Shown here: positions 1 through 18,515 of the stretch, piece after piece
Numbering within the stretch: the stretch's first letter is position 1
Layout of the letters: each line of letters starts with the position of its first letter
From: Escallonia rubra
Lineage: Eukaryota; Streptophyta; Magnoliopsida; Escalloniales; Escalloniaceae
NCBI GenBank assembly: GCA_033065855.1
Contig: JAVXUO010002710.1
Span: forward strand, 47,432 to 111,431
Direction: 5' to 3'
Length of the DNA: 64,000 nucleotides
Program-made: the position numbers and the translations under genes
The notes under the pieces: model-generated
Seen by the model: only the letters and a program-made list of their open reading frames with translations
Database searches by the model: none
What the model was told of the DNA's origin: nothing

Positions 1-23
1 CTGTTACTTTGTCGTTATCCCAG

Positions 24-48
24 CGTCCGCAACACAGTGTAGCGGACG
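24..48. repeat. Palindrome, left-end copy
   Basis: GTCCGC and GCGGAC half-sites surround the core AACACAGTGTA. The right half (ACAGTGTAGCGGAC) matches the copies at 8685-8897 better than the internal arrays. It lies about 400 bases before the start codon of the protease gene. Confidence 0.8.
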
Positions 49-451
49 TTGGCAAGCATTCGAATCCTTCTAAACTTCTATTCATTCCTTCTTCTCACAA
101 TCAAACTATTCCTTCTTCTCACAATCAAACTATTCCTTCTTCTCACGATCAAACCAGCGGCGTTGGCAAGTAGATCGGCGCAATTTCTTTGCAAGAAATC
201 CTTTAATCGTCTCATCAATCACGTAAGTTCACAAACTAATCCTTACTTTGTTCATAATCTAGAGTTCATCTTGCGGCGTTGGCAAGTAGATAGGCACTAT
301 GCTAGCGTTTGTCAATGTATATACATATATATTATATATGTGTATTGCGTATTATCTGATCACATGCTAGCGCTGAATATGCTAGCGTTGTATGTTTGTG
401 AATGTTTACGCTTCCAACCTTGCCCTCTTTCCATTATTTCAGTTGCAAAAA
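49..451 (+). promoter_or_regulatory. 5' flank of the PMD-Ulp1 gene
   Basis: Three direct copies of a 24-base unit (core TTCCTTCTTCTCAC) lie at 84-155. The phrase GCGTTGGCAAGTAGAT occurs twice, near 158 and 276. A TA-rich stretch at 316-345 could hold a TATA element. A weak ORF through this region only reflects the 24-base repeat and is not called as a gene. Confidence 0.4.
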
Positions 452-3400
452 ATGGATTTCAACCCTGGACCAGAAGATTCGTCCGTATTATACGACCAAG
501 CATCCCATATCAGTACGCTCATATGGGATGGTGGAGTAAGATACTTATTTTATCGTTTATATCGTTTATTTTGCTTACGTATTTCAGTTGCGAACGTTGT
601 ATAGTGTTTATTTTGCTTAAATAATATTTATTAATTCGTAGGAAAGAGCACTTGTCAACACGGTAGAAGTAAGCGATAATTTCAACGCCTGGAAATTGAA
701 CAGAACCCAGAAAAGATTAATGCGTGGGATTGGGTTTGGGATTTTCACGCATGGGCAGATCTTTCAACAACTTGACCGGCACTTAATAGGTGCCCTTGTT
801 GAAAGGTGGAGAAGTGAAACGAATACGTTTCACTTCCCTCTCGGAGAGATGACAATTACCCTAGAAGATGTAGGGTTCATCTTAGGGTTACCGGTGACGG
901 GGCGGCCGGTAATAGCTCATCCGTCCGAAGCAACGAATAAGAGGACCGCTAGGGACTTCTTTACTTCGGTACCACAGGATGGATTTAGCAGTGGTGGTAT
1001 CAAGTTGAAGTGGTTGGTAGATACCTACGGGGTTTTGCCGGAAAACTATACGGGCCATGACCTTGTGCTGTACACACAAGCCTTCCTCTTGTGGGTGATG
1101 GGGGCAATATTATTCCCAACGACGTCGAAGAACACGGTCAACGTCAAATATTTACCGTTTTTGCGTAACCTGGCTGAGGTTGGGGATTATGCCTGGGGTG
1201 CAGCAACTCTTGCATACCTGTACCGAGCATTGCACAAGGCAACGAGGCCCGACTCCAAAGCGATATGTGCATGTCTCTCGCTATTGCAGGTATATCATAC
1301 AATTCTTCATTACGTGCTCTTTGTTGTTTTTTTTTTTGTTGAATGGACAATAAATGTTGACGATACTTTTTTCAATGTCTTTGCTCTCAGGTGTGGTCTT
1401 ATGAACACCTTGCTACCGGCGCACCCAGGCGTAGGGACGGAACAGATAATGTGTGGCCTCGGTTGTGCGCCTGGGAGTACAGCCGGAAGGAAACCCACTA
1501 CGAGAGGAGAGACGATCCCCATCACAACATTTCATACTATCGGGGGGAGCTCGACTCGTTATCTCCTGGCCAGATGCGATGGGCACCGTACAAACGTTTG
1601 GCGCGACGGGTGGGAGAGTCGTTCGTCTTCACGCTCTCCGGGTTGCAACGCACACCCCTGATCCACTTCGAGGTCGCAGAGTGGCAGCTGCCGGATCGCG
1701 CTATGCGCCATTTTGACTGCCTGCAGGGGTTGCCAGCCGGCGCGCCAGATATGAGGCTTAACAGGAACCCACCGGGTGTCGGACTGTTTGGCAGGCCGAA
1801 TGCGCACGAGTTGTGCGCGTGTGAAATTGAGGTCTGGAATTCTTGGCAAGACACGCTGGCGGCCATTGTGTCGGAGCCTGACCCCGTCATCAGTATCGAA
1901 CAGTACAACGAGTGGTACTACCGCATCACCCGGAGGAGAGTAGCTCCAGTAAGGTTTGAACGCGGGGAGAAGTACCACCCTAGGGGTCAGATCGATGAGC
2001 ACATGGCATACAATCTGGTAAGTTGCCCAACCAGTGCTTCTAATTGAACTTGATCATTCTAAGTGTGTACGAAGTTACTTATTTATTATCTCTCTGGATG
2101 TAGGTTAATGCCTCGTTCGCCTTCTTCCAGAAGTTGAGCGAGCGGAAGGATTTGGTGGATGCCATGGGCGAGGAGCTTCGCCAACAGGCTGAAGCGTTGG
2201 CGGTTGGCTGCGGGAATTTTTTGCGGCAAGCATCGGGACAGCCAAACCCGGGAATGGGTTATCCGGGGTGGCAGCGGCCGTTTGTTCCCGAGGGATGCAC
2301 CGATCCATCGGGACAGACTTCGGGAGTGAGCCAGGGATATGGTTTTCCCTCTGTACCGGAGATCTGTGGTGATTGGGGACCGCCAAGCACCATGGGCCAA
2401 GCGCCGTGGGAAGATTACAGTGCGCCCTCCTTCTCTTTACTATTGGATTCGGAACCCCAACCCCTCTCTCAGAGTCAAGTCACGCAAGACTGGGGTTTCG
2501 GAAACATCAGTCTGCCCATTGTCCCGTGGGCAGGACCATCTATTGCCAAAGGCGGGCAATACCCCCCCGTTGACCCCCCTGAAGGAGGGCAATATCGCCC
2601 CGTCGACCCCCTCGAAGGAGTGCAATATCCCCCCGTCGACCCCCCCGAAGGAGTGCAATACCCCCCGGTCGACCCCCGAGGGCAATATCGCAAAGGGCAT
2701 CCGTTGAAGCCCCTAAAGCCGCAGAAATGCCAGATAATCAGAGAGCGTTATTTTAGCGGCGTCCCGCATGACCAAGCGTTGTATAGTGTGGATCATCCGG
2801 AGGGCATGGATTACAGTTGCTCGTGGGGAGAACTGGCCTCGCTGGCTCCGGGGAGTTGGTTAGACACCGGTGTCGTCTCCACCTACGTGGAGATTCTGAA
2901 GGAAAGGTGTCGGCAGCAGCCGATCTATCCGCTCGTTTTTCTGTTCGATGCCTTTTTTCATCAGATGCTAGTGTCTGAATGGCATGAGTGGGTCGAAAAT
3001 AGGGGGAAGAAAAAGTTGGTCCAGTGGAGACCGTCCTTTAACCTACGAGCGTATCTTAATAGGGATAGTCCGGTGAGCGCAAGTGTTGCCGATGTGTTTC
3101 TAATCCCACTTTTAGGGCACAGCCACTGGTACTTGGTTTGCTACTCCCCAACAACTAAAGTCGTATCGGTGATCGACAGTCTCCACGACGATACTCATCA
3201 GATGCCTGTGCTGCACATGTACAAAGCCCAATTGGACGCGTTGGTAATATTACGATCGCTGTATAATTCTCTGATTCTATCTTGCCATAAATTTTAACTC
3301 GTGTCTTACGCCATTTTCTGTTTCTCGCAGAATATTTTTTGTGCAATGGTCAATCGTGTCCGTGATGTCCCCGTACCGGCGCGGCCAAATCTCAATAGGC

Positions 3401-3642
3401 GATTGAAGAAGAGGAGGCCCAAGCAACGTAACACTTCGGACTGCGGCGTCTTCCTTTGCATGTACATGGATTTCATTTGTCGCTCTGAGAGCCTCAAGGC
3501 GGCCGTCTGGAGCCAAGCAGAAGTTGAAGGCTATAGATATAGAATGGCTTGGCAAATTATGAAAGGCCGGCCTAGAGCGGTTAGGTTTATAGAAAATCCG
3601 GCTAATGACGAGAATCCGGCCCAACATGCGGACCCCAGTTGA
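452..3642 (+). CDS. Plant mobile domain - Ulp1 (C48) protease fusion, MULE-borne, five exons
   Basis: Model: 452-535, 642-1289, 1391-2017, 2104-3243, 3331-3642. Every intron is GT-AG and phase 0, and the joined frame is open for about 936 residues. The start ATG is chosen because it opens MDFNPGPEDSSV, a typical beginning of MULE-associated plant-mobile-domain (PMD, MAIN-like) proteins. The PMD spans roughly residues 30-440 and includes ITLEDVGFILGLPV. A proline-rich repeat follows at about 602-650. The C-terminal half is a C48 cysteine protease with the full tetrad visible: His794 (GHSHWYL), Asp811 (VIDS), Gln865 and Cys871 (TSDCGVF). C48 enzymes process or remove SUMO; the substrate here is unknown. 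It converges on the B3 gene. An ambiguous base (n) lies at 3734, outside the coding exons. Confidence 0.85.
2548..2690 (+). repeat. In-frame minisatellite in the PMD-Ulp1 gene
   Basis: Four imperfect copies of a unit of about 36 bases encode QYPPVDPPEG-type peptides between the mobile domain and the protease. Unit length is a multiple of three, so changes in copy number keep the frame. Confidence 0.8.
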
Positions 3643-3845
3643 AATTGTATCATAACAGTATTTTTTACATAAACCGTACGCCATTGGTGTGATTTGATTT
3701 GTGTTGATTTGTGTTGTCGTTGGTGTGCTTTGTNTTGTGTTGATTTCTGTTGTCGAATACTGATTTTTCTGATGAACGTTGTTGGTTTTTTGGCCTCATT
3801 GGGAATGATTGAAATGTGGAAAACGAAATGGTGCAAAAATTTTGG

Positions 3846-4790
3846 AAGTTTCTCTGCTGCGCCGTCCGCTACATTGTATCGCGGATGTAAAATGAAGACC
3901 AAATTTTTCTAAGTATTGATACCAAAAGTTTAAACACCAAATTTTTCTAAGTGTTGATACCAAAAGTTTCTGCTGCGCCGTCCGCTACATTGTATCGCGG
4001 ACGTAAAATGAACACCAAAAGTTTCTGCTGCGCCGTCCGCTACATTATATCGCGGACGTAAAATGAACACCAAATTTTTCTAAGTGTTGATACCAAAAGT
4101 TCTGCTGCGCCGTCCGCTACATTGTATCGCGGACGTAAAATGAACACCAAATTTTTCTAAGTGTTGATACCAAAAGTTCTGCTGCGCCGTCCGCTACATT
4201 GTATGGCGGACGTAAAATGAAGACCAAATTTTTCTAAGTGTTGATACCAAAAGTTTCTGCTGCCCCGTCCGCTACATTGTATCGCGGACGTAAAATGAAG
4301 ACCAAATTTTTCTAAGTGTTGATACCAAAAGTTTCTGCTGCGCCGTCCGCTACATTGTATCGCGGACGTAAAATGAACACCAAAAGTTTCTGCTGCGCCG
4401 TCCGCTACATTGTATCGCGGACGTAAAATGAACACCAAATTTTTCTAAGTGTTGATACCAAAAGTTCTGCTGCGCCGTCCGCTACATTGTATCGCGGACG
4501 TAAAATGAACACCAAATTTTTCTAAGTGTTGATACCAAAAGTTCTGCTGCGCCGTCCGCTACATTGTATGGCGGACGTAAAATGAAGACCAAATTTTTCT
4601 AAGTGTTGATACCAAAAGTTTCTGCTGCGCCGTCCGCTACATTGTATGGCGGACGTAAAATGAAGACCAAATTTTTCTAAGTGTTGATACCAAAAGTTTC
4701 TGCTGCCCCGTCCGCTACATTGTATCGCGGACGTAAAATGAAGACCAAATTTTTCTGCTGCGCCGTCCGCTACAATATATCGAGGCTATT
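3846..4790. repeat. Tandem array of 13 palindrome-containing units
   Basis: Thirteen units follow one another after the stop codon of the protease gene. The full unit is about 77 bases and a short form is about 55 bases, lacking the TTTTTCTAAGTGTTGATACC segment. Each starts near CTGCTGCGCC and holds a palindrome GTCCGC TACATTGTATC GCGGAC, with a few one-base variants (GGCGGAC, TATAT). The last copy (about 4763-4787) is degenerate. Spurious ORFs such as 4157-4438 are translations of the repeat. Confidence 0.92.
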
Positions 4791-4866
4791 TCAAACGACA
4801 CAATTAAGCGAGGAAAAATTTCGAAACACAATCAACAAGAACTCAAATTATTTTATTAATCATAAA

Positions 4867-5330
4867 TTAGGGTTCACATTGGGGGAAAGAAATTTTTTCA
4901 CAAGTGCTCCGATCAAAGATTACAACTTCAAAATCCCACCACCCAAGGTGTTCAAACACTACAAAGTCCCCGAGTTCGAGGCCATGCTGGCGCACGAAGA
5001 CGTTCCAACCCTCTGCGAATTGCTTTTTTTGGGGTCGGCCGGGCTTCAGCTTGATTTCAACCTGCCATGCCCCCTTGCGGCTATATAATCTTGCACTGTC
5101 ATGAATTGTTGTAAATTGATTGGTGAAGGCTTCCGGTATGTCCTAACAAACACAATACACAAAAAATAGGTTAGTTTTTAACCAAAAGATTTAACACACG
5201 AAAATACAGAGATAGAGGGATGGCATACAAGTTCATTCTCAAACCCCGGCATCATGACTTTGAAAAAGTGTTTGCCTGCCAGGTGCAAGTTGCCAATAAA
5301 ATCGTAGGTGGTCTCCGATCCAGAAGCCAT
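4867..5330 (-). CDS. Single B3-domain DNA-binding protein, two exons, MULE-borne
   Basis: Model: exon 1 5330-5229 and exon 2 5142-4867, joined by a phase-0 GT-AG intron (donor GTATGC, acceptor TTTGTTAG). The protein has 125 residues and is essentially one B3 fold. HFFKVMMPGFENEL is followed by DIPEAFTNQF, then WQVEIKLKP, FAEGWNVFVRQHGLELGDF, VVFEHLG and FEVVIFDRSTCEK, in the order seen in REM-type B3 proteins. B3 domains bind double-stranded DNA in a sequence-specific way, so a plausible but unproven role is binding the element's own repeats. The gene lies between two palindrome arrays: the 13-unit array is just beyond its stop codon and a five-unit array is about 170 bases upstream of its ATG. 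A TA-rich stretch near 5480-5500 may act as a TATA element. Confidence 0.85.
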
Positions 5331-5500
5331 CGAGGTCGGCGTTGAGGGGGGGACGGTTTATCGCCGGAGTTGTGGATCACCTGTGGGTCGCCGGAGATGG
5401 AGTAGTGGCCTGGGCTAGATGTTCCAGACAGAGAGACTGTTATCAGATTGGACTGATAACAGCCGATTGCCCGATATGATTAATATATATCATATAGACT
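5331..5500 (-). promoter_or_regulatory. Putative promoter of the B3 gene
   Basis: This short region between the B3 start codon and the five-unit array contains an AT-rich stretch (5476-5500, TATATGATATATATTAATC on the minus strand) about 150 bases before the ATG. Confidence 0.35.
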
Positions 5501-5733
5501 TATCCGCTACATTGTATAGCGGACATAAAAGAAGACCAAAAGTTATGACGTCCGCTATATTATATAGTGGACATTAAAGAAGACCAAAAGTTTGCCTGCT
5601 CTAACGTCCGCTACATTGTATAGCGGACGTACAAAGACCAAAAGTTTTACTTCGATGCCACCCCTCCGCTAGACAATATAGCGGACGTAAAAGACCAAAG
5701 TCAATGATGTCGGCTACATTGTATAGCGGACGG
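5501..5733. repeat. Five-unit palindrome array upstream of the B3 gene
   Basis: Palindromes lie at about 5501-5525, 5549-5573, 5604-5630, 5664-5688 and 5707-5732. They have the same GTCCGC...GCGGAC arms as the 13-unit array, with TATAGCGGAC in place of TATCGCGGAC. Spacers repeat AAAGAAGACCAAAAGTT. The second and fifth copies carry arm mutations. Confidence 0.9.
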
Positions 5734-5881
5734 GGATTACCAAATAAAAAAAAAACTCATAATAAAGACTTTAGATTTTATTCGATGGCCTCTCATAGGT
5801 CCATTTTAAAAAAATTCCAGTACCCGGTCGAAAAATTATCCCTCGAATATTATTACAAATGTCATAAAGTTGTACAAAAAA

Positions 5882-8179
5882 TTAAAGGTCCACTGCAGCT
5901 TGTTCGTCCTCATCTTCGGCGTCACCTTCTTCCCCGTCTTGCAAACCCCTTGAACTTATCCCCAGTGCCTTGTAATGGTTCCGCTTGTCGTGGTCGGTCA
6001 TTTTGTTGCACAATGCACACCTTCGCAGCTTTTTAGGTTGAGTTGCCGTTTCAATAGAGCTTTTCATCCGCGTAGATCTCTTGCGGCCTTTCGTTTGCGA
6101 TATAATTGGATCCAACAAACGGATATCATTGTCGTCTTCCTCCTCCGGCTCGTCATCTTCTGATACCCCCGTCGTAGGCTCGGTGTCAATCGCATTGGTG
6201 ACTGAAGCTGCTTCCAACTGGTCGACGATGGGCTCTTGTTGCTGAGCTACCTCGAGGAGATGTTTATAACCGACCATTGTAGCAGCACCTTTTACGGACA
6301 AACGGGTGAACATCGTCACCAGATGATTATACCGCAACGTCTCTGATTCTTCAAAGTCAGTATACGGGTGCTCCGGAAAGGAAATGGTACCGTGCAACCT
6401 GTTTGCACCTTTTGTCCACCGTGGCAAGACGTATTTATCGGGGATTGTCCTGATATTCTTCTGGGTGAAAAACCGCAGAACGTGTCTACACAGGATGCCA
6501 TGGAACTCAAACTTCTTGCAAACACATGTCACCGAGTCCGTCAATGTGTCGTGGCTCACCGTATACATTCTGCGCAGCTTCTCAGGGACTAGGTCATTCA
6601 CGAGCGAATAAACCTTGTACTCACGCGTAGACATTTCTGCCACCTTGTTTATACTGTATCGTCCGGATTTTCGCAGCTCTACTTGGTATAGCAAGAAGAT
6701 CTCCTTCGTATAGACTTTGGCACCGTTCATCTCCAGCGGGGTCTCGAGCAACGTTCTCCTTTGTTTGTACGTTGTTGCAAAGTCGGCAGCCCTTTCTTTT
6801 ACGAACAACGAAGCTACCGCTTTTTGTGCGGATGCAACGAAAGTCTTCAAATTGGTAGCTGTACCCACATAACTATCGAACGTGGCATTCATGGATTCAC
6901 TCCTGCCCGTCGTTTTCATGCCCGCTGAAAAATACCTCCTCGTGTAAACGCCAATCCATTGCTCTTTGCGCTCGTACAAGTGCTGGAGCCACTCGTTGTC
7001 TTGCAATGAGTAATCCCGAACAAGCTTTTCCCACCTCTCCTCGAATTCCTCAATCGTTAACGACTTGAGGACGCACTTGTCAAAATCCTGTTTAAAGTCT
7101 TGATACTTTGCGTACACGTGATGCAGCCGTTCCGGGTATTTGTTGCTTATGTGCCAGGTGCACAAGTTGTGCCGAGTGTCTGGGAAGACGGTCGCAATAG
7201 CCTTCTTCATTGCCAAATCTTGATCGGTGATGATCACTTTGGGTGCTTTGAAGTTCATTGCTTCCAGCCACGTCCTAAACAACCATTCAAAAGAACTCTC
7301 GGTCTCGTCCCTTAACAAGGCGAACCCGAACAGGATGGAGTGATAATGATGATTGACCCCCGTGAAAGGGGCGAACGGCATCGAGTACTTGTTGGTACGG
7401 TATGTGGTGTCGAACGTCACGACATCCCCAAAATGCTTATAAGCAAGCCTCGAACGACCGTCGACCCAAAAAATTGTGCTAACTCGATGCTCGTCGTCAA
7501 GTTTATAATCGAAGGTCAACTGCGGGTCCTCCATCTGCATCCGTTTCAATAGGCTCATTGTGGCTTGAGCATCATTGAGGTCATACGCGGCTCGTCTATG
7601 GGTTCGGACCGCGTTACGAACGTCTGTCGTGTTAAAGGTCAAATTTTGAATTCCCCCAGCCTGTTCAGCAAGAACATTAATCATGTCGGTAGGTCCTAGT
7701 CGCGCATTGCTCATTGTCTGAATCAGGCTCCTTGCGACCTTACCCATCTTCTTGTGTTGATGCATCTCACTCACCTTAGAAGGGGTTACTAACGGGTGAT
7801 TGTGTGCCAGTTCCAGGCTGGTAATAAGCCAATGGTCTTGTTTGGGTTTGTAGCTTACGAACATCTTGACCTGGCAATTTGTGCACTCAAAGCAGTCCCG
7901 TCTTCTACGCGGATATCCTATTTCGTCCTCACTGTCATCATTGCCTACACATGTCTCATTTTGCACTGGGTTTCTGCTCCTATGGCACTCGTATAAGCGA
8001 GAGCATATCTTTCTCGTTATGGTGCTCGTTCTTGAAGTCTTTATTCTAATGCCAAAACCAACCCTCAATGAATACGCTCGAAAACATGCTTCAGCTTCTT
8101 CCAACGTAGCAAATGTTCGTCCTAGATACGGATCACTAGCATCTACGGGGACGTTGGAGCTCGACACGAAATCAGACAT
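5882..8179 (-). CDS. FAR1-related MULE transposase
   Basis: The frame is open from 8224 and gives 780 residues from the first ATG. I prefer the ATG at 8179 (MSDFVSSSNV, 765 residues), because an acceptor-like TCTACACAG lies just upstream of it and the first 15 residues look non-conserved. Numbered from 8224, an N-terminal FAR1 DNA-binding zinc region covers about residues 32-146 (C74, C80, ECTNC, HNH). The MULE DDE transposase domain follows with D272 (FDTTYRTN), D334 (IITDQD) and E443 (GRSESMN). A SWIM zinc finger (C567, C569, C579, H581) comes next, then an acidic stretch and a final CALCNKMTDH zinc-like motif. No catalytic residue is missing. A domesticated FRS gene is the alternative, but the repeats and partner genes favour an active element. 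Confidence 0.9.
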   Translation of the reverse strand: MSDFVSSSNVPVDASDPYLGRTFATLEEAEACFRAYSLRVGFGIRIKTSRTSTITRKICSRLYECHRSRNPVQNETCVGNDDSEDEIGYPRRRRDCFECTNCQVKMFVSYKPKQDHWLITSLELAHNHPLVTPSKVSEMHQHKKMGKVARSLIQTMSNARLGPTDMINVLAEQAGGIQNLTFNTTDVRNAVRTHRRAAYDLNDAQATMSLLKRMQMEDPQLTFDYKLDDEHRVSTIFWVDGRSRLAYKHFGDVVTFDTTYRTNKYSMPFAPFTGVNHHYHSILFGFALLRDETESSFEWLFRTWLEAMNFKAPKVIITDQDLAMKKAIATVFPDTRHNLCTWHISNKYPERLHHVYAKYQDFKQDFDKCVLKSLTIEEFEERWEKLVRDYSLQDNEWLQHLYERKEQWIGVYTRRYFSAGMKTTGRSESMNATFDSYVGTATNLKTFVASAQKAVASLFVKERAADFATTYKQRRTLLETPLEMNGAKVYTKEIFLLYQVELRKSGRYSINKVAEMSTREYKVYSLVNDLVPEKLRRMYTVSHDTLTDSVTCVCKKFEFHGILCRHVLRFFTQKNIRTIPDKYVLPRWTKGANRLHGTISFPEHPYTDFEESETLRYNHLVTMFTRLSVKGAATMVGYKHLLEVAQQQEPIVDQLEAASVTNAIDTEPTTGVSEDDEPEEEDDNDIRLLDPIISQTKGRKRSTRMKSSIETATQPKKLRRCALCNKMTDHDKRNHYKALGISSRGLQDGEEGDAEDEDEQAAVDL

Positions 8180-8684
8180 TGTGAAACAAGAGCTGTGTAG
8201 AAATAGACTACGCTTAACAATCAAATGGCATTTCTAACTGAAAATATTACCTAAAAATTAGGATGGCAAACATACGGTATGCATAATCTCAAAAGTGTCT
8301 CCAAATTAACAATTACTAATTTATTGAACATAACAAATTTAAATTAGTAAGATAAATAGACGAATTCATCATGCCAAAAAATCGAATTAAACTATAATGA
8401 ATTAAATATAAAGTTAACAAATTATACCTTTTTGATGAACATCATGTCTAGAACATCACAAAAAATCTAGAGTATAAAATCACAAATTGATGAATACAGT
8501 GACAAATTTCTAGAACATCAAGAAAGCTTGAAGCAAACTTACCTTGCTTGAGCGAAGCTTGAAGCAAGTGTTACTCGAAGCTTGAAGGCAGCTGAAAATG
8601 GAAGCGAGTCTGAAGGAGAAGAAAATTGTGCGGAAAGAATTGAGTAGAAGAAAATTGTGCTGAAAGAAAGGGGATGGGCAATAC
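8180..8684 (-). promoter_or_regulatory. Transposase leader, with probable 5'UTR intron
   Basis: On the minus strand a donor-like site (CAAGCAAG|GTAAGTTTG, near 8541) and an acceptor-like site (TTTCTACACAG, near 8193) could bound an intron of about 350 bases in the 5' leader. The stretch is otherwise AT-rich and without a gene. Confidence 0.35.
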
Positions 8685-8897
8685 TGTCCGCTATACTGTG
8701 TAGCGGACAGAATTGCCGACATCAAGTCACACTTGTGTCAGACAAGTCACAATTGTGTCAGAATGACAGTCGTCCGCTGGACAGTGTAGCGGACTACTTT
8801 TTGTCGCAGGTTGTTTTCGTCCGCTAGACTGTGTAGCGGACGTGTGAGCAAGGGCAAGATGGTAAAAAGATCCGTCCGCGAGACTGTGTAGCGGACG
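8685..8897. repeat. Four palindromes upstream of the transposase (right-end copies)
   Basis: Copies lie at 8685-8709, 8771-8795, 8818-8842 and 8873-8897. All have GTCCGC arms and end CTGTGTAGCGGAC or CAGTGTAGCGGAC, matching the left-end copy at 24-48 rather than the internal arrays. Confidence 0.9.
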
Positions 8898-8921
8898 ACT
8901 GACAGCGCCGCAAAAAAAAGT

Positions 8922-8960
8922 GATCTGGACCGTCCATCCCTTCGGGATGGACGGCCAGAT
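8922..8960. repeat. Long hairpin with TTCG loop near the right edge of the MULE
   Basis: The arm GATCTGGACCGTCCATCCC pairs with the following bases across a TTCG loop, with a single unpaired base. It is the last structured feature before the TA microsatellite. Confidence 0.7.
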
Positions 8961-9011
8961 CGCGCTGGCAAGATATCCTATTTTGCCTACGCGGTCAAGG
9001 GATCAGCTCCC

Positions 9012-9095: not shown

Positions 9096-9209
9096 TTAGA
9101 CACCCAAATTACATCATTGCTTTAAAGTTATTGTTGTTATGTCTTCTAGAAAGACTTATTACTTAAGAAAAAGCAAAGCTAGAAGGCCCTTTCTAGTCTG
9201 GATTTATAA
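9096..9209. other. Three-way rearrangement junction in the pararetrovirus
   Basis: Bases 9096-9113 match 14800-14817. Bases from about 9114 to 9150 match the plus strand around 15427-15463, which is coat-protein antisense. The next 45 or so bases match the complement of about 15565-15610, which is coat-protein sense. Three short viral pieces in different orientation are thus joined just before the polymerase frame. Confidence 0.75.
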
Positions 9210-11381
9210 TGTCTAGTTTACAGTATATCTGATTTAATCATAGGAAATAATAAACATTTAATTCAGCAAATTCAACAAGACTTTAAATTAGAAAAATTTT
9301 GCACAAAGGCAAGATTCAATAACCTTATAACTACTAGAGTACAAATCAGACATTATAATAAGTTATTAGAAACAAATGCCATAATAGATACAGGATGCAC
9401 TATTACTGTTATAGATCCAAGCCTAGCAGACCTATCTCACATCAAGACATTCGAAGAACCCTTAATTGGTATAAGATTTACAGGCAATCCTATTAAATAT
9501 TCTGAATATATTACAAATGCAGTTATTACTTTTCTTACACCATGCAATACACAAAGTAAACCGTACTCTCTTAAACAAGCCTTTTGTGCGCCTGTCGCAC
9601 ACTCAGTAGGAAAAATTATTTTAGGAATAAATTTCTTAATAAATGACAATAATACTTTAACTATTACTAAAGACTTTATTCAAATAGCACAAAATGTGAC
9701 ACATACACCTATTAACATAGACACTCCATCAGAGTACGCTCAGAAGCGTGGTGGGGAATATGTTAATATAAAAGGCAAAAACAAAATATGTGAAGACTGT
9801 AGTAACGGAAAGACAAATTGTTGTCTAACCAATACAGATATAGGATATGAATGTTTAAAAATAGAAGAAATAATAGAAGAAAATGACATAGAAAATAATA
9901 TAGATCTAGACGTTTACAACCTAGATAGAATTAGCTATAATTTAATAAATTACTTTACAAATAAATATGATATTCTCAAAGCAATAGACAGACTCCCTTT
10001 TATAAGAGAAGATCCTATTAAAAGATGGGATTTAAATCAGATATACTGTAAACTAGACATTATAAATCCAGACTATATTGTTAAAACTGCAAATATAGAA
10101 GCAAGTAGTTTAGATACAGATGATTTCAAAATGCACATAAAAGACTTAACAGAATTAAAAGTAATAAGACCAAGCAATAGCCCTCATAGATCTGCAGCTT
10201 TCATAGTTAGAAACCACGCAGAAATACTTAGAGGCAAAAGTCGAATGGTAATAAATTATAAAAGACTAAATGATAATATAAGAGATGATAGTTATAACAT
10301 TCCTAATAAAACCTTTCTTTTAAGTAAAATACAAGGCAAAAAGATATTTAGCAAATTTGACTGTAAATCAGGCTTTTATCAAATTAAAATGTGGCTAGAA
10401 GACATTAAATGGACAGCTTTTACTACACCAGAAGGCTTATATGAATGGTTAGTCATGCCCTTTGGTCTTAAGACAGCCCCTAGTATCTTCCAACGCAAAA
10501 TGGACGATATTTTTAGACCTTATAATGACTTTATTTTAGTATACATAGACGATATTTTAGTCTGTAGTAAAAATGAACATGAGCATCTGTCTCATTTAGA
10601 TTTAGTTTTTAAACTTTTTAACAAACACGGTTTAATACTTAGCAAGAAAATTGTAGAATTATTCAAAACAAATATAAAATTCTTAGGGATGGAAATAGGA
10701 AATGGCAAAATAAAATTACAAGAACATATAGCTAAAAAGATCTTAGACTTTCCAGACAAATTAGAAGGTTTAAAACAAATTCAGGCATTTTTAGGATTAA
10801 TTAATCAAGCCATAATGTATTTTAAAGACCTAAGTAAATTAATAGGCCCGCTATATAACAAAACTAGAAAAAATGGACAAAGACATTTTAACACAGAAGA
10901 TATTAGATTAGTTAAAACTATAAAAGAGAGAGTCAAACATTTACCTGATCTATATTTACCTTTAGACACAGATTATTTAATAGTTCAGACAGATGGATGC
11001 AAAGACGGATGGGGAGCAGTTTTATACTGCAAACCAAACAAATATAGTAATAAGAAAGAAGAAAGAATTTGTAGATATTCTAGTGGCAAATACAAAGAAA
11101 GTAATCAATATTTGACAAGTTTAGACTACGAATTACTAGCTATAGTGTACGCACTAGAACATTTCAAGGCACTTTTAATTTCTAAATATGAGTTTTGTAT
11201 TAGAACGGACTGTGAGGCCATAGTAAGATACAACAAGAATAAAGATGCTAGATACACAAATAGATGGTTAAAATTTATGACTTCCTTAAGCAATTATAGG
11301 ATAGATAAAATAGAATGGCAACACATTAAAGGAGTTGATAACTCCATTGCCGATCTATTATCTAGAAAAATTTTATCTTGA
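9210..11381 (+). pseudogene. Caulimovirid polymerase: aspartic protease, reverse transcriptase, RNase H
   Basis: The frame is open for about 723 codons but has no ATG near its start; the upstream end is a rearrangement junction with an in-frame stop at 9207-9209. In order it shows a protease with the active-site DTG at 9387-9395, the RT palm with catalytic YIDD near 10540, and RNase H with its acidic residues (QTDGCKDGWGAVL, a Glu in the YELLAIVYALEHF segment, RTDCEAI, IADLLSR). In caulimovirids this polyprotein converts the pregenomic RNA into DNA. No stop or frameshift lies inside the domains, but the 5' part is lost, so it is classed as a broken copy. A GTG at 9696 lies within the frame and is not a natural start. 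Confidence 0.9.
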
Positions 11382-11456
11382 GATAACTCCATACAATTAG
11401 ACAGACATCTATTTCATACAATTTAGAATCAGACAAATTTCTTGTTTTATTAACAG
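11382..11456 (+). other. Short spacer between polymerase and viroplasmin ORFs
   Basis: About 75 bases without a gene separate the polymerase stop from the ATG at 11457. The compact spacing is usual for a viral genome. Confidence 0.5.
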
Positions 11457-12730
11457 ATGGCATCTTCAGCATCAGCATCTTCCTCTTCTCAGACCAGGCA
11501 AACCCTGTTTTTCCAACTCAGTTCGTCAGTTATATTGACAACTTTGGTAGAAATAGGATTAATTTTAATGGCAATAACTTAGAAGTCTTACAGGCAGGCT
11601 CCAGGTTTCAGGTCAAAGACCATAAAATTGGTCATTTCCCTGTAGACCAAAGAACACTCTTAGATAACTTATGGCAATCTTATGTTAAAAAAGACAACGA
11701 ATGGTTTGTCAATACAGTTAACGCTGTGGCAAATTATTTTCATAAATTAAGAGACACTAAAAAATATAATTTTTATTGTGTTTTTAAAGGCACTATTCCG
11801 GGTATATATAAAAGTTATCCTGAGGCTATGGTTGGCGGAGTAGGAAATGTAAAAGATCCTTGGTACAAAGGAACCATAACATTTCAAGAAGCCACCACTT
11901 TAATGCAGACCCATTATGGCCCCAACTATTATATTAGTCCAGACTGTCAAGACAGATCTATTTCTGACACCTTAGCAGACTGTGAAAATTGCAATACTTT
12001 AATTAGACACCATAATATTTTAAAATCCAGAATAGACCATTTACTTTTAGAAAAATCACATTTTGATGTACAAGTAGCACATCTCAAATCCCAGATACAA
12101 GTAGCAGAACTAGAGGCAAATGACTGGAAACAGAGGTATACCACTCTCCTTTCCACCAGGCAACAGACATCAAAACCCAATGTTTCGGGTAATAAAGGAA
12201 CATCTAGTCTGGATTCACAGGCATCCAGTAAAGACAAATCAAGTCCTGTTACAGTTGGTAATTTACTTAAAATTACTGAAATTCCTTTGGGTTCAGGAGA
12301 AAGAATCCCTAGTCCAGCTTCACAGGCTGCTGGTAAAGACTCCTCAAGTCCTGATAGAGTTGGTGTTTTACTCAAAAACACTGAAAATCCTTTAAATATG
12401 GGAGAATATATTTCTAGTCCAGTTCCACAGGTGACTGGTAAAGACTTATCAAACCCTGAGACCCCTGTCCATTTGGGAAAAATGGAGTTACGCAAACTTA
12501 AAAGCAAAAAGGCAAAAAGACAAGCCCTGGCCATACAAAGTCAGGTTGCCAAAGTACTTGCAGAACTTGTTAATCAGACACTAGCATCCAAGACAGAAGC
12601 GTCCACCAGCAATTTTGATGATTCAATCTTTCAAGACGCTCAAAGACAGAGCCCAAGCCTTACAGCTAATTCCGGTGACTCATCTGAAGATCAGACAGAA
12701 GAATCTAGTGAACGACCTTTAAAAAAGTAA
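11457..12730 (+). pseudogene. Caulimovirid viroplasmin/transactivator-like protein, frameshifted near its start
   Basis: The ATG at 11457 begins a Ser/Ala-rich peptide in one frame, while the conserved body continues in another frame from about 11500 to the stop at 12728-12730, so a frameshift lies near 11490-11505. The body contains a caulimovirus viroplasmin (RNase H1-N-like) domain around FYCVFKGTIPGIYKSY (about 11775-11825). A predicted coiled coil follows, then a Ser/Pro-rich tail with three imperfect repeats of about 40 residues (SLDSQASSKD, SPASQAAGKD, SPVPQVTGKD), then a basic segment. In related viruses this protein forms inclusion bodies and supports translation of downstream ORFs on the polycistronic RNA. 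Confidence 0.8.
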
Positions 12731-13141
12731 ATACACAATCTTCAGGAGCATTATTACTTCAGACAAAAATGAATAGAAGACTCAAGACTTATCAAGACTC
12801 GGAAAGCAGACAAGACCCCTCTAAAATTGAATTATTAAGCCAAGAGACAAAGCATCTTTCTTTTGGTAAAGGCAACAGAAGACATTGTCAGAAAAAGCAT
12901 CTTGGTTGAAAAAGAAGACATTATCAGAGAAGGCATCTTCCTATAAGACATCGTCGGCAGAAGAACAGCAGAGGATGAAGACAAGAAACAAAGCATCTTA
13001 GCCTTTAGGCCTACTATTTGCTTTATAGACTTTAAGACTTCCTTTTAAAATTATTGTTATGTAGTCTAAAGTTATTTTGTCCTTTGTACAAATGTAATGC
13101 ATTAGTCCTGTAGATGTCCTGTAGAATAGCTTTATTCTGCC
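12731..13141 (+). promoter_or_regulatory. Viral intergenic region upstream of the pregenomic promoter
   Basis: There is no ORF. The sequence has repeated AAGCATCTT and AAGACAT words (12850-12990) and AT-rich stretches. By position it would hold the enhancer part of the viral promoter; I did not recognise a specific box. Confidence 0.4.
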
Positions 13142-13148
13142 TATATAA
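13142..13148 (+). promoter_or_regulatory. TATA box of the viral pregenomic promoter
   Basis: TATATAA sits in a non-coding region after the viroplasmin ORF and before a long leader, the expected place of a 35S-type promoter. Transcription would start about 30 bases downstream. Confidence 0.6.
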
Positions 13149-13174
13149 ACTCAGGCAGAGTTCATTTGTAAACA

Positions 13175-13967
13175 TGCGAAGTAATCCTTTGAAGAGTAAT
13201 ACAATATTCTCTTTGAAACTTCTCTGCTTCATGCAATCTCACTTCTCTCTGTAAATCATCCAATTCCTCAATTCAAGTACGCAGCAATCTTTATTTCAAG
13301 TAAGTTCATTTTCTAAACTTGTTTAATATTCTGGGGTGAAAACGCTCAATGACGAAACACATTCTATGAATTGAAAAGGAACGTTTCTAAGTCTAATATG
13401 ACTAAAAACATCCTAATAATGTTTTGATTCAAAATCATATGGCATTTACTTGGGAAAGAGAGACTCTTTTAAAACAATTTTGTTTTGAAAAATAATTATG
13501 CTTACCCCAGGTCTACCTAGATCTAAATCAATTATGCTTCTAAACGAATTTCCAGAGTCCTCTTTATGGGTTGAAACAATAGTGGGAGCGAGTCGTTCAG
13601 GGTTATTGCCGAGTGATGGCGTTGAAAGCCCGCAGACTAACGCATGCCCTGAGTTTCTTACTTTGAAAGAAGACTTTGTCGGTTCAACCTAGCATCCTGA
13701 GATTTATTCTAGACTAGACCTACCAGGCATCCTGAAGTTTTGAAAAATAAAATCTTCTTCAAAGACTCTCTCTCTCTCTAAGTTTTTGCCCTATTTTTTG
13801 AATCTTTTCAGTATTCCGCTGTGTTTTTTATCTATATTACGCTTCGTCCTTAATGGATCACGGTCCAACCGGGGACTCTTTCTCTTTTGAATGTTTAATC
13901 TACGGATACCAGACGTCGCTATGCCTTTGGCAGGTCCGCAAGGATTGACGATTTTAAAGTAAAAATA
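13175..13967 (+). other. Viral RNA leader, no main ORF
   Basis: About 800 bases lie between the promoter and the first ORF. Short upstream ORFs are present (for example 13498-13692), as is usual in caulimovirid leaders. No clear tRNA-Met primer-binding site (TGGTATCAGAGC) was found. The segment at 13279-13303 recurs at 18697-18721. Confidence 0.5.
13279..13303 (+). repeat. Leader segment repeated at the far end of the virus (copy 1)
   Basis: A 25-base stretch with core GCAGCAATCTTTATTTCAAG is identical to 18697-18721, in the same orientation. Confidence 0.9.
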
Positions 13968-14333
13968 ATGACTAAAGGATATGAAGATTTTCAACAAGGC
14001 AAAAATCTTTTAATATGCACTACTTTTATAGGAAAGTTAACACAAAATAGTCAAGTAGGATATAAATTAACCATAGATGATACTGCAAAATTTATCATAA
14101 ATAGAGGAATTAGACTCTTACCACCATATAAAGTAGATTCATTAGAAAATGCAGGACAAGAATGGCAAGTAGATAAACTACTAGAAACAAGCTCTAATAA
14201 TAGTATTATACCCACAGACAACTTTTATTATAGAAATGCTTCAGGAAGAATGTCAGTTAGATTTACAAATTATGTTGAAGCAAATACTCACCTAGGAGAT
14301 CATGACATTCAAGAAGAGGAAGAAAATGTATAG
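13968..14333 (+). CDS. Caulimovirid ORF after the leader, function unknown
   Basis: This 121-codon ORF is the first after the leader. It has no motif that I recognise. It could be a small accessory ORF or a fragment of a movement protein. It ends with an acidic tail (EEEEN) and its stop overlaps the next ORF (ATGTATAG), so both were probably expressed from one polycistronic RNA. Confidence 0.5.
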   Translation: MTKGYEDFQQGKNLLICTTFIGKLTQNSQVGYKLTIDDTAKFIINRGIRLLPPYKVDSLENAGQEWQVDKLLETSSNNSIIPTDNFYYRNASGRMSVRFTNYVEANTHLGDHDIQEEEENV

Positions 14334-14890
14334 TTACAAAGACTTTGACATCCTAAACAATTTAGACATAAAAATCTTAAATCAATCTATAGGAACTACA
14401 TTCGTAGGAAAAGGTTTAAATTTAGAACAATTACAACACTTTATAAATATTACAGAAGAAGAAGACAGATTAGATATTTTTAATCAACCAGAATATACAT
14501 TACAAACTAATCAAGACAACTCTATTATTGATTGTTTAAAAGACATAGACATCAACTTAGATAAAAGCCCTTCAATTGAATCTCCCGGTCTAGATAAACT
14601 TAGCCCTGAAATAAATCATAAAATAGAATTAGAACAGAAAATCAACCAAGCGATAAATGAAATAGAGTTAATTAGAAAAGAACAAACAACTCTAGAAAAT
14701 GATAATAATATACTAGTAGAAGAAATGGATAACATATTAGATTCTTTAGAACCTGAATTAGACCTAAATATAGACTTAGAACAGTTAGAAACAAGTTCAT
14801 TAGACACCCAAATTACAACAAACAATGTTAAATTCAACCTAATGAATGAAGTACCTTATTTCCTTATGGAAGAAGGTGAAAATTCAGGTA
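14326..14890 (+). pseudogene. Caulimovirid ORF, acidic coiled-coil protein, cut at its 3' end
   Basis: The likely start is the ATG at 14326, overlapping the stop of the preceding ORF, rather than the in-frame ATG at 14302. The product is acidic, with a heptad-like region around 14630-14770 (EQKINQAINEIELIRKEQ) that suggests a coiled coil. The viral reading ends at the inversion junction near 14888; the codons up to the stop at 14916 come from coat-protein antisense and are not original. Its bases 14800-14817 recur at 9096-9113. Confidence 0.5.
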
Positions 14891-16527
14891 CAACTATCTT
14901 CTTGTCTTTGTTTTAGGGTTTCTTCTATTTGAATAACCTTTTGTTCTAAGAATTCTAGTCTTCTATTAACATTTTTATCGTAGTAAGTGTCTTTATTTGT
15001 TTTTAGTTCTAAGGGTTTTATAATATCTATGTTATATTTCTGTTTAATGCATTTTACACATGCTTCTACATAACATACTTCACACTTACATCTGACTTTA
15101 ATAGCTGGATACCAATTGCATATATAACATGGAGTTGTATCTATACCTTTTTCTATATGCCATTGATGTATACAGGTTTCTTCTAGGGCTAATTGTCCTG
15201 CTAAGGGTTTAAACATAAAGTTGTATATTTCTGTATCTCTTAAAGAATTTATAAAGGTATCTAGTTTGTCTGTAGTTTCTATTGGAAAATTTTCTTCTTC
15301 TTCATCACTACTTATAGAGAGGTTGTCTTCTATGTATTCATCTATAGATTTAATACTATATATACTTTCTGTATCACTAAGAGTTTCATCTACTTCTAAC
15401 AGATCTTCATTTGTATTGTTGACTATCATTGCTTTAAAGTTATTGTTGTTATGTCTTCTAGGGCAATTAGAGCTTAAATGGTCTGGTTCTCCACACGAGT
15501 AACAAGTAATTTTATTTTTGTATATTCTCCTAGTGTCATATTTCCTAACGTGTTTAGGGTTTAGAAAGGGCCTTCTAGCTTTGCTTTTTCTTAAGTAATA
15601 AGTCTTTCTAGGTTGTTTATATCTTTTGTGAGGTTTCTTATTATACTTAGGTCTAGATTCTTCTTGACCAAAGTGATGTGGTGTGTATATTTCTTTACAG
15701 AAACTGGTTTCATTCTTTAACTGTCTAGCTATCTGTATATTAGTGCATTTAGAAACTAATATTTCTATAACATGTTCAAAAACATTGCCTAAAGAAGGTG
15801 TCAATGTAGTGCTAGGATAGAGTTTTTTAATGGTTTCATATATTTCTCTTCCTAAAGCGCCTGGTAACTTATTTAGAAACTTATCTATTACAGCTGGTTT
15901 ATAAATATTGCCACTCTGTGAAGCAAAGTAATAGTATTCTTGCATGAAGGGTTTTATATTATGCCAACTATATAGATGTACTTGTTCTAATTTTCTAGCT
16001 GCTTCAGTTTGTATTAATGTATCTCCTGTATTAGGATTTCTACCTGTTAAAATTAATTGTATAGTGTTAACAAAATTATAAGGATTGGGTCCTAAGTCTG
16101 CCATTTGTTTTAAATCATCAGGATAAGTCTTTTGCCATTCTTCAAAATTAGCCTTAGCTATAGGGCCTAAAAATTGTATCATATATCTTATCATTTCTTC
16201 GCCTGTTTCTAAATTATCAGATTGTTTGGTTATAAAGTTTGCTACAACTGCATCTTTCCATACTTGTATATAATTGTTTCTTTGTTGAGGGTCTACTGCT
16301 GTTATGTTTAAAATAAAAGGATCTGCTGCCTTTTGGATTTTAAAATTTTGTTCTAAAGGATGTCTTTTACCTCTAGGTTTATAATTAGGTCTATCTGATC
16401 TATTATGTTCTATGTTTGCGCTATTTCTTGGTATGTTACCATAAGGATAACGTGGTCTTACATGAGGTTGTGTGGTATAAAATATGCCTCCATCATCGTT
16501 TCTATTATTATACAGCTTTAGAAACAA
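14884..16527 (-). pseudogene. Caulimovirid coat protein (zinc-knuckle), inverted and N-terminally truncated
   Basis: The frame is open for 547 codons on the minus strand. The first few codons (above about 16513) belong to the neighbouring segment, so the true N-terminus is lost. The capsid core runs from about residue 60 to 290. A basic region follows, then a CCHC knuckle (CYSCGEPDHLSSNC, about 15465-15510), then an acidic stretch. A second Cys cluster fits CX2CX11CX2CX4CX2C (about 15040-15130). The knuckle binds nucleic acid during packaging. The second cluster is the pattern described for badnaviruses and tungroviruses. The C-terminus may continue a heptad region (EFLEQKVIQIEETLKQ). The frame contains no stop. 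Confidence 0.85.
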
Positions 16528-16946
16528 TAGATGTCACAAATGAAAGAATAAAACATTATATAGACACAGACTCTATTACTTTAAGATACAATCCTTTATC
16601 TTTTTATATAAGATATTTTCTAAACTTAGACTTATTATTAGAAGACTTTGACATTTTCTTTCAACATCTTATAGGATTTTACATACAATTAAAAGATCAC
16701 CAAAATAACTCGTTATATTATACTGAGTTCCATAGAAGACTTAGTCAAACAGATCAAAGTAGTTCCTTAGAAAATTTAGGTGTACCTTCTGACATTACCG
16801 CGCAATTACAAAACAATTTAAATAGATTACAATTAGAGTCAGATTTAGATTATGAAGATTATTTAAACTATAACGAAGACGATAATGATTATCCATGGGA
16901 TGATGAAGCCCTGGCTAATTTAGACAACACTTATAGTGGAATATAG
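16514..16946 (+). pseudogene. Caulimovirid ORF 'A', 5'-truncated, homologous to 17997-18515
   Basis: The viral reading starts at the junction near 16514 (ALETIDVTNERIKHYI); codons upstream belong to coat-protein antisense. The protein aligns with the minus-strand product of 17997-18515 over about 70 residues, sharing NERI(K/R)H, YNPL, and an FYI followed by an N-N-K/S-YY pattern. Its C-terminal part is acidic. Its TAG is immediately followed by the ATG of the next ORF at 16947. The function is unknown. Confidence 0.6.
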
Positions 16947-17228
16947 ATGGCTACAAACAAAATAGAATATTTAAATCTTCAAACAGACAATAAAAGTTTA
17001 AAAATAATTAGAGAAAACCTAGATTATATGAAGGAAGTTTATATGCAATCTTCAGACAAGTCTAAACAAAGTGAAGCTAAAATAGAAACAATATTAGACA
17101 AATTTAACAAAATAGCTATCGAATTAGAAAGAATTATGATTACTATAGACAGACTTGAAAAACAAATCAGTAAAATAGAAGATAACTTAAGACAATATTT
17201 TAATATACAGGGACTAGATTACAAATGA
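16947..17228 (+). CDS. Caulimovirid small coiled-coil ORF
   Basis: The ORF has 93 codons. Hydrophobic residues recur in a heptad-like pattern through most of its length (IETILDKFNKIAIELERI, IDRLEKQISKIED), so a coiled coil is likely. By size and character it resembles virion-associated or ORF2-type proteins of caulimovirids, but this is inference. Its stop overlaps the next start as ATGA, which suggests coupled or re-initiating translation. Confidence 0.6.
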   Translation: MATNKIEYLNLQTDNKSLKIIRENLDYMKEVYMQSSDKSKQSEAKIETILDKFNKIAIELERIMITIDRLEKQISKIEDNLRQYFNIQGLDYK

Positions 17229-17572
17229 GCACTTCCAAAAACTATGAAAACTATTCAGACTATAAACAAGCTTTGTTAGATGAAAATGATTACTTATTTC
17301 CAGCAGAAGGCATATCTAAGAACGCACTAGGAACTCCAAACGATCTTTCTAATAGAAAACAAAATAATGTTATTATAATGTTACTAATAAAATGTTTAGA
17401 AAGACTCGACACCCTAGCACTAAAAATAGAGCTATTTCTTAAACCTAGAACGGAGACTACTTTAGATATGGATGTTCTATGCAAAAAACTAGAGAAAATA
17501 ACAATAGACAAACCTAAAAGGAAAACAAAAACCCAAGACTTAAATTTTTTAACATATGACAAGTCACAATAG
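17225..17572 (+). CDS. Caulimovirid small ORF, function unknown
   Basis: The ORF has 115 codons and begins in the ATGA overlap with the coiled-coil ORF. It contains a YSDYKQALLDE segment and a basic KPKRKTKT stretch near its end, which could bind nucleic acid. It overlaps the next ORF by 17 bases. No family was recognised with confidence. Confidence 0.55.
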   Translation: MSTSKNYENYSDYKQALLDENDYLFPAEGISKNALGTPNDLSNRKQNNVIIMLLIKCLERLDTLALKIELFLKPRTETTLDMDVLCKKLEKITIDKPKRKTKTQDLNFLTYDKSQ

Positions 17573-17909
17573 AGGTCAAATTTTAGGAAGAGGTAATATA
17601 GAAGATAGGAGTAGAACAGAAGTTTTGGCTACTGAAATTAGAAGACGTAATGAAAATAATTTACAAAACCGTGTACTTAGACTTTTTAGAACACCTGCTT
17701 TACCTTTAATTTCTTTAGAACAGATTATAGACGTTGATAGACAAATAGAACAGTTTAGACAAAACAGATTAGATTTAATATCTCCTCAAATATTATATCA
17801 ACATCATTCTCAATTAAGTCAAACAAGACTATTTATGCATTATAGAGAAACACAAAATAGATGTGTAGGAGAAGATGTAGCTAGTGTAAATCTAATATAT
17901 CTATGGTAG
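17556..17909 (+). pseudogene. Caulimovirid ORF, cut at an inversion junction
   Basis: This starts inside the preceding ORF and runs into the inversion near 17885; the last codons are from the inverted block. The product is Arg/Asn-rich (RRRNENNLQNRVLRLF) with a helical IDVDRQIEQFRQNRL segment. It could be the N-terminal part of a larger movement or capsid polyprotein, but nothing diagnostic is visible. Confidence 0.5.
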
Positions 17910-17999
17910 TCTGTTGATCAACATTAAAATTGTTAATCATGTCATTAAAACTAAAGGGCTCTTGATAAGGTTCAGTGTTTAAATCTCTATCTGTCATTA
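17886..17999 (-). pseudogene. Start of a caulimovirid ORF on the inverted block
   Basis: An ATG at 17999 overlaps the stop of the 17997-18515 ORF (TTAATGAC) and opens a frame of about 37 codons that is cut at the junction. In gene order it corresponds to the coiled-coil ORF at 16947-17228. Confidence 0.45.
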
Positions 18000-18515
18000 A
18001 TCTGGCAGGTATAAACTGTTTGGTTCTTCATTATCACTAGAACTATCTGAATCTGTACTGTCTATATTACTAATAATTTGTAGAAAATTTATATGGTCTG
18101 TTATGTGGTCTATAGCAGTTGCTTCATGTCTATCGATTATCGCTCTAAATCTATCAAAATTAGGTCTAGTTATGTTTAATATTAGGTATTCACTACGATA
18201 ATATTTATTGTTTTCGAAGTCTTGGTAATATATATAAAAATCAACTAAATGTTTTAAATACTGGTTAATGCCTATTGTTATAGCAGAAACATTTGTAAAA
18301 GTACTAATGTATCTTTTTAAAGGATTGTATACTAAAGGTATTGTATGTTGCGAAATGTTATGTCTAATTCGTTCATTTGCATCTGTAATGATTTCTAATG
18401 CTACTAGAAATCTACGAAATTCTATGTAATTTGCTTCAAAACGATTTTCTGTATTACTAATATAAGTGGGTGCTATACGTCTAGAAGTGCCTGGAATATT
18501 TCTAGAGTTGCTCAT
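17997..18515 (-). CDS. Caulimovirid ORF 'A', complete divergent homologue
   Basis: This complete 172-codon ORF is homologous to 16514-16946 but clearly diverged in sequence, so the locus holds two different versions of the same viral gene in opposite orientation. The N-terminus is polar and rich in Arg/Ser. The C-terminus is acidic (DSTDSDSSSDNEE). The start codon overlaps the stop of the upstream ORF as TAATG. The function is unknown. Confidence 0.6.
   Translation of the reverse strand: MSNSRNIPGTSRRIAPTYISNTENRFEANYIEFRRFLVALEIITDANERIRHNISQHTIPLVYNPLKRYISTFTNVSAITIGINQYLKHLVDFYIYYQDFENNKYYRSEYLILNITRPNFDRFRAIIDRHEATAIDHITDHINFLQIISNIDSTDSDSSSDNEEPNSLYLPD

Follow-up and report, generated by a model that had tools for sequence, protein, structure and literature searches.

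Do three neighbouring genes of Escallonia rubra that stand among many copies of one palindrome form a single mobile unit, and could the palindrome be the site by which such a unit recognises its own copies? We analysed a stretch of 64,000 nucleotides (C996:47432-111431, called the window below; coordinates are window positions unless prefixed), in which an earlier note had described this arrangement. The results revealed a Mutator-like element (MULE) carrying a FAR1-type transposase, a B3 protein and a protein in which a plant mobile domain (PMD) is fused to an Ulp1 protease. Its 25-bp palindrome, a dyad, stands near both ends, upstream of each gene and in a variable central array, and the three genes recur together with the same dyads in other copies. 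We see about an even chance that this arrangement is a self-recognition cassette, in which the dyad would be bound by an element protein and would mark the element's own copies. The parts of the element are given below, with TIR standing for terminal inverted repeat.

1-9011, no strand assigned: part of the MULE inside the window, placed by the TIR match and by the ends shared with the C17 copy.
24-48, no strand assigned: palindrome upstream of the PMD-Ulp1 gene; three more lie at about C996:47244-47372, left of the window.
452-3642, plus strand: PMD-Ulp1 gene, exons 452-535, 642-1289, 1391-2017, 2104-3243 and 3331-3642, 936 amino acids (aa).
3863-4788, no strand assigned: 13 palindromes in a tandem array of 77/55-bp period, between the 3' ends of the PMD-Ulp1 and B3 genes.
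4867-5330, minus strand: B3 gene, exons 5330-5229 and 5142-4867, 125 aa.
5501-5732, no strand assigned: five palindromes lying 5' of B3 and 3' of the transposase (identity of cores 81%, of flanks 31% left and 44% right).
5882-8179, minus strand (8179-5882): FAR1-MULE-SWIM transposase, single exon, 765 aa.
8685-8897, no strand assigned: four palindromes, three of which fall within the right TIR, 5' of the transposase (identity of cores 87%, of flanks 26% left and 21% right).
8766-9011, minus strand: right TIR, found by blastn (93.95% over 248 columns).

The 23 palindromes that the earlier note had seen spread over the element were all recovered, and none of them (0/23) overlapped an exon. With up to three mismatches allowed, the window held 24 matches, 23 of them inside the element, compared to 0.20 expected in shuffles; the single extra match, with three mismatches, lies at 57018-57038. 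The exact half-site TCCGCTA or its complement occurred 28 times in the 64-kb window, in all 28 cases inside the element. The dispersed copies read YGTCCGCTANANNNTNTAGCGGACR. Thirteen of the 23 window sites do not count as independent events, since they make up a single tandem array with a period of about 77/55. Genome-wide searches covered an assembly of 566,129,122 bases in 3,222 contigs, where the pattern GTCCGCTANANNNTNTAGCGGAC was found 11,296 times and its backward-read control not once. We took the first places listed by this pattern search as ten further palindrome loci, which were thus reached without using the genes, and at least eight of the ten contained genes or ends of this MULE family. 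Plants have B3 and FAR1-derived host regulators, and dyads repeated in promoters look like an enhancer array, as they would if the element used the dyads as enhancers recognised by a host factor, for instance one of the B3/REM or FRS proteins of the host. However, the remaining 55 kb of the window contain no exact half-site and at least eight of the ten further loci belong to this family, and we consider a host-factor site quite improbable.

All three genes, in the order and orientation of the window, were present at four of the ten palindrome loci, giving five trio copies when the window copy is counted (window, C17, C9b, C9c and C1). The three older copies (C9b, C9c and C1) are decayed, with in-frame stops. 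Among the other loci, C17b retained the PMD and a transposase piece, without B3 within the fetched stretch, and C2 a 54-aa transposase remnant; C9a consisted of two gene-less copies only, C12 of one gene-less copy only, and C9d and C11 of one palindrome each. The strict form TCCGCN11GCGGA occurred at 97 sites in the five trio copies (23, 27, 20, 11 and 16, the window copy's count taking in three sites left of the window). These sites occupied all four non-coding intervals (upstream of PMD-Ulp1, PMD-Ulp1/B3, B3/transposase and upstream of the transposase) in the five copies, and none of the 97 lay in an exon.

We then compared gene neighbours at loci found through the genes themselves. The transposase search gave 4,774 first-look candidates, 59 of which were scored, and all 59 covered the full 765 aa without stops at 99-100% identity. 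B3 adjoined 57 of these 59 intact transposases (one B3 being shortened): for 35 a listed B3 stood 715-743 bp downstream on the same strand, and 601-bp fetches at all of the remaining 24 found B3 in 22 and none in two. The B3 search gave 2,129 candidates; of the 150 that were scored, 61 had second exons that were 100% identical. Around the best 30 B3 loci, transposase sequence adjoined in 29 and PMD-Ulp1 sequence in all 30 (20 in the first fetch, 10 of 10 after a further 1.5 kb); the genes next to B3 are truncated at L036, and at L043 the transposase match is the last 58 aa only. The PMD-Ulp1 search returned 6,665 candidates and 48 scored loci, at least 23 of which had a partner in the partial lists of B3 and transposase. 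These neighbour counts (57/59, 29/30 and 30/30) rule out chance co-residence of the trio. The B3 and PMD-Ulp1 genes lie inside the limits of the element and the trio is kept, with its dyads, in further copies of this genome (five copies, the window's included, have the same order), as the earlier note had proposed; neither outcome by which that note would have judged the co-residence accidental, genes beyond the limits or a trio absent from every other copy, was observed. The samples drawn through the genes favour young copies that are close relatives and not independent events, and the older decayed copies are the better argument for a long association of the trio. The family has been recently amplified in E. 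rubra, since all 59 scored transposases are intact at 99-100% identity and 61 of 150 B3 second exons are identical. Viral contigs searched with the transposase yielded no related loci.

The dyads were also counted in these samples. The best 30 B3 loci contained 143 exact dyads, compared to none in each of 200 shuffled-arm controls, and the central array varied in size, with 6-25 palindromes per 3.3-kb B3 locus and unit variants that differ from copy to copy. Tandem duplication does explain this central array. As the source of the dispersed sites it is disfavoured, most of their flanks being unrelated (the middle five share part of the right flank, 44%). Three gene-less copies of 1.4-1.7 kb (similar-ended derivatives at L009 1225-2905, L009 2948-4451 and L014 2954-4382) carried palindromes near the ends only, with 2-5 dyads per end. 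The first dyad stood 110-116 bp from the terminus in these copies and 115-116 bp in the window and C17 copies.

The element is larger than the earlier note had it. The limits of 24 and 8960 were corrected to an end at 9011 and a start 301 bp left of the window (L005 6131-6431, in the flanking contig sequence examined), so that the full MULE measures 9,313 bp (G000 C996:47130-56442). Both termini start with GGGAGCTGATCCC, and the left end matched the reverse complement of the right end over 248 columns at 93.95% identity. The sister copy C17:22231-31827 has the same termini, TIRs of 257 columns at 91% and a clean 9-bp target-site duplication, ATTAAACAA, at both ends; the window copy sits in TA repeats, where the target duplication is ambiguous. 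Both ends were placed exactly in these two copies only. The TIRs, the 9-bp duplication of C17 and the MULE domain of the transposase together settle the superfamily as MULE. A 40-bp near-perfect inverted repeat (GATCTGG...CCAGATC) was also seen within the right TIR at 8922-8961, with its left equivalent at L005 6181-6220.

The three reading frames described earlier are genuine genes, as gene models and Pfam domains above the curated cut-offs (in bits) show. The transposase has MULE (114.4, cut-off 27.6), FAR1 (44.4, cut-off 28.1) and SWIM (23.1, cut-off 19.6) domains, a make-up that we take to be that of Jittery transposases, and by this domain content the element is classed as an autonomous-type FAR1/Jittery-like MULE. 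Across 16 aligned proteins, D257 and D321 never change, and we read E428 as the putative third catalytic residue. The best protein match was unnamed (46% identity), and the nearest named ones were FAR1-RELATED SEQUENCE 5-like (about 40%). The PMD-Ulp1 gene has GT-AG introns and five exons whose lengths are all multiples of three; its product contains a plant mobile domain at aa 71-420 (247.6 bits, cut-off 34.9) and a C48/Ulp1 peptidase at aa 705-908 (Peptidase_C48, 51.1, cut-off 20.7). Alignment of the Ulp1 part with SENP2 (E 3.5e-13) kept the H, D, Q and C positions, which are presumably the catalytic residues, and the protein is SUMO-protease-like with its predicted catalytic residues retained. 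A 33-bp tandem repeat in exon 4 (2549-2677) codes for a repeated peptide rich in proline, located between the PMD and the Ulp1 half. The nearest annotated PMD proteins were E. rubra P0122 (96% over 54% of the query) and P0123 (79% over 65%). The P0122 annotation (RJ640_023953) joins the element PMD to a pentatricopeptide-repeat protein and to a piece that resembles the tail of a FAR1-type transposase, and this fused model is probably an annotation artefact. The B3 protein scored 41.3 bits (cut-off 30.1, E 1.5e-10); sequence comparison with structure chains matched it weakly, to VRN1 at E 0.01 and to At1g16640 at E 0.037, and the annotated-protein search returned a single match, the E. herrerae protein P0001. 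The stretches HFFKVMMPGF, GDF..FEH and D.STCEK of B3 were retained across the five trio copies. None of the three element proteins had a Pfam match to DUF1985 or DUF287, the VANC domains, at E up to 1.

The modules of the element differ in age and rate. Compared with the three older copies, the window copy was about 90% identical in the transposase, 81-84% in the PMD, 57-84% in B3 and 52-65% in the Ulp1 half. Pairwise Nei-Gojobori ratios of nonsynonymous to synonymous divergence (dN/dS) among the five trio copies were 0.26-0.40 for the transposase and 0.30-0.59 for the PMD domain (10 pairs each); the in-frame stops of the three older copies inflate these ratios, and positive selection is not claimed for any module. 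The transposase and PMD are slow-evolving, and B3 and the Ulp1 half are faster. Between the window copy and C1, dS was 0.144 for the transposase, 0.299 for the PMD, 0.380 for B3 and 0.803 for the Ulp1 half. Because dS is so unequal between modules, the element appears to be a mosaic in which the transposase is younger than the middle part, and the comparison of the window copy with the two C9 copies and C1 suggests that the central part has been exchanged between element lineages.

Such rates bear on a rival explanation, namely that the dyads are subterminal transposase sites spread inward by tandem duplication and that B3 and PMD-Ulp1 are captured passengers with no role in control. Gene capture by MULEs is frequent, according to the accessible text of PMC2528002. 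The gene-less copies retain dyads at each end, with the first one at the near-constant distance given above, and the transposase is conserved at about 90% between lineages in which B3 falls to 57%. However, passengers would not be expected to survive in 57 of 59 intact copies, even though these near-identical young copies are not independent, and neither the core of B3 nor the catalytic positions of Ulp1 have been lost. Dyads also fill all four intervals in the five copies, and the largely unrelated flanks of the dispersed dyads make simple duplication insufficient. We hold the passenger explanation to be rather unlikely.

The pattern of change within the dyad indicates what kind of site it may be. 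In the two window clusters, nine dispersed cores were about 80% identical, compared to about 30-31% for their 25-bp flanks. Columns 11 and 15 are fixed and columns 10 and 16 vary, around a variable centre, a pattern that a symmetric protein site would be expected to show. Between the window copy and C17, C9b, C9c and C1, the conserved arm positions were kept better than their surroundings (0.97/0.93, 0.92/0.80, 0.89/0.76 and 0.86/0.78, respectively). The near-perfect inverted arms could alternatively work as DNA or RNA hairpins and not as protein sites, and columns 1, 10 and 12 do show compensated changes (in 2, 1 and 1 of 10 dispersed copies, respectively). Yet arm positions 2-9 showed no compensated double change in the 10 dispersed copies, and array columns 8/18 formed a Watson-Crick pair in none of 13 copies (10 T/C, 3 T/G). 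A hairpin function is disfavoured by these core arms and appears very improbable; since the core arms lack compensated changes, a site for a dimeric protein is the likelier interpretation of the dyad.

If the dyad belongs to a self-recognition cassette, an element-encoded DNA-binding protein would bind it as a dimer. The transposase FAR1 domain is somewhat the likelier candidate, though we put it just short of even, because the dyads stand near the ends of gene-less copies and the transposase is slow to change. B3 is a lesser but substantial candidate, and a host factor ranks third. A regulatory role, with B3 as a possible binder, is proposed because dyads occupy promoters and the array and because B3 stands beside 57 of the 59 transposases. 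Terminal dyads may then serve the assembly of the transposition complex, and promoter and array dyads may tag copies of the element itself so that these are transcribed or escape silencing.

Several observations weigh against the cassette. The Ulp1 half (dN/dS 0.48-0.92, 10 pairs) and B3 (0.49-1.01, 9 pairs, one pair having dS 0) are under weak constraint. The motif stayed constant while B3 diverged to 57%, which is a mild argument against B3 as the binder. Over the full 25 bp, the dyads hardly exceed their flanks (0.93 v 0.93, 0.85 v 0.80, 0.77 v 0.76 and 0.81 v 0.78), and compensated changes are present at columns 1, 10 and 12. Two of the 59 intact transposases had no B3 in the 601 bp probed, so that B3 is perhaps unneeded in cis. 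The CpG observed-to-expected ratio, which would otherwise speak for the cassette, was 1.06 in the element, compared to 0.77 at 18.6-64 kb of the window and 0.40 in the neighbouring virus-like stretch; the value of the element fits youth or low methylation alike and cannot separate the two, and its height might reflect youth alone.

The two B3-less copies (C1250:320572-321726 and C1370:19504-20706) each combine a PMD-Ulp1 match with a transposase that is intact and nearly identical. The gap from transposase to PMD-Ulp1 is about 1.2 kb in these copies, compared to 2.2 kb otherwise, and 6 and 8 palindromes remain in the probes. They offer a natural test of whether B3 is required, and they bear directly on an arrangement resembling that of Spm/En, in which an accessory B3 would join the ends through subterminal dyads and regulate promoters while the transposase binds the outermost TIR. 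Spm/En has repeated subterminal sites, belongs to the CACTA superfamily and encodes a TnpA that is not known to be a B3 protein, whereas the E. rubra element is a MULE with B3 and shares with Spm the placing of dyads near its ends. Dyads both near the ends and in promoters agree with a TnpA-like B3, as do the three B3 stretches retained in five copies. The available text of PMC10398659 describes Spm TnpA as an activator of its own element that correlates with demethylation, and links both TnpA and the MuDR transposase MURA to loss of methylation. Against this arrangement stand the two intact-transposase copies without B3 in the stretch probed and a motif unchanged during B3 divergence, and we judge it unlikely.

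Returning to the self-recognition cassette, the fast-evolving B3 and Ulp1 half may work in trans, with host chromatin or SUMO as their target, and so play a part comparable to that of the VANC/KIU proteins in VANDALs or of TnpA in Spm. By analogy with VANC, TnpA and MURA, the element may counter silencing, and on the model of MURA the transposase could cover both tasks by itself. A more specific proposal is that self-targeting anti-silencing arose here separately from VANDAL/VANC, a captured B3 reading the dyad and, with PMD-Ulp1, keeping all copies open, including gene-less ones. We regard this as doubtful; such a B3/PMD-Ulp1 system, if real, would explain the recent burst in Escallonia.

To our knowledge, sequence-specific transposon anti-silencing is best worked out in the VANDALs of Arabidopsis. 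In the accessible sections of PMC5735166, VANC proteins (DUF1985/DUF287) are tied to motifs in non-coding DNA, such as YAGTATTAY arrayed in one orientation, with variable tandem arrays and a conserved transposase beside a fast-evolving second gene. The E. rubra family likewise is a multi-gene MULE with its own short motif repeated in non-coding DNA, variable tandem arrays of this motif and a conserved transposase accompanied by a fast second gene. In contrast, its proteins have no DUF1985 match, its motif is a 25-bp dyad and it carries B3 as an additional gene. VANDALs are non-TIR MULEs, and Ulp1-carrying VANC genes (KIU) exist (available text of PMC13317346); the 248-bp TIRs of the E. rubra element set it apart from that class.

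Ulp1 genes are known in MULEs (Kaonashi; melon, rice and grapevine), including Jittery-like elements of melon and grapevine and in either orientation (PMC2528002, in its accessible part). The E. rubra element resembles these in joining a MULE to an Ulp1 cysteine-protease gene, whereas B3, a PMD fused to Ulp1 and a dispersed palindrome go unmentioned in the available portion of that account. MULE-captured PMD-C domains, fused with transposases, occur in several grasses and Amborella, and the authors speculate on an anti-silencing use by transposable elements (PMC5418596, available text). The PMD of E. rubra is likewise carried by a MULE, but in a separate gene and fused to Ulp1 instead of the transposase. 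A search of the open-access literature at the level of titles and the openings of abstracts, with closed journals and Repbase outside it, found no description of a MULE-encoded B3 or of the B3/PMD-Ulp1/transposase trio among the papers listed. Ulp1 and PMD in MULEs are thus already known, and B3 in a MULE, together with the trio, is apparently new, no report having been found.

The family is young, multi-copy and apparently intact, and it lives in a distant asterid with different accessory proteins and an unusually clear dyad. It would allow one to ask whether self-targeting systems have evolved more than once, and what purpose the PMD and Ulp1 modules of plant transposons serve. If the transposase alone binds the dyad, the family would still be a clean system for studying end recognition by FAR1-type MULE transposases, the kind of protein to which the FHY3/FAR1 regulators of plants trace back.

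Beyond the element, ORF lists inspected by eye showed an AT-rich stretch at 9100-18500 (CpG ratio 0.40) whose frames resemble an endogenous plant pararetrovirus, with a reverse transcriptase-like frame at 9696-11381 and a zinc-knuckle-like frame at 14884-16527 on the minus strand. A further minus-strand frame at 35231-36118 resembled, also by eye, part of a 2-oxoglutarate dehydrogenase-type enzyme.

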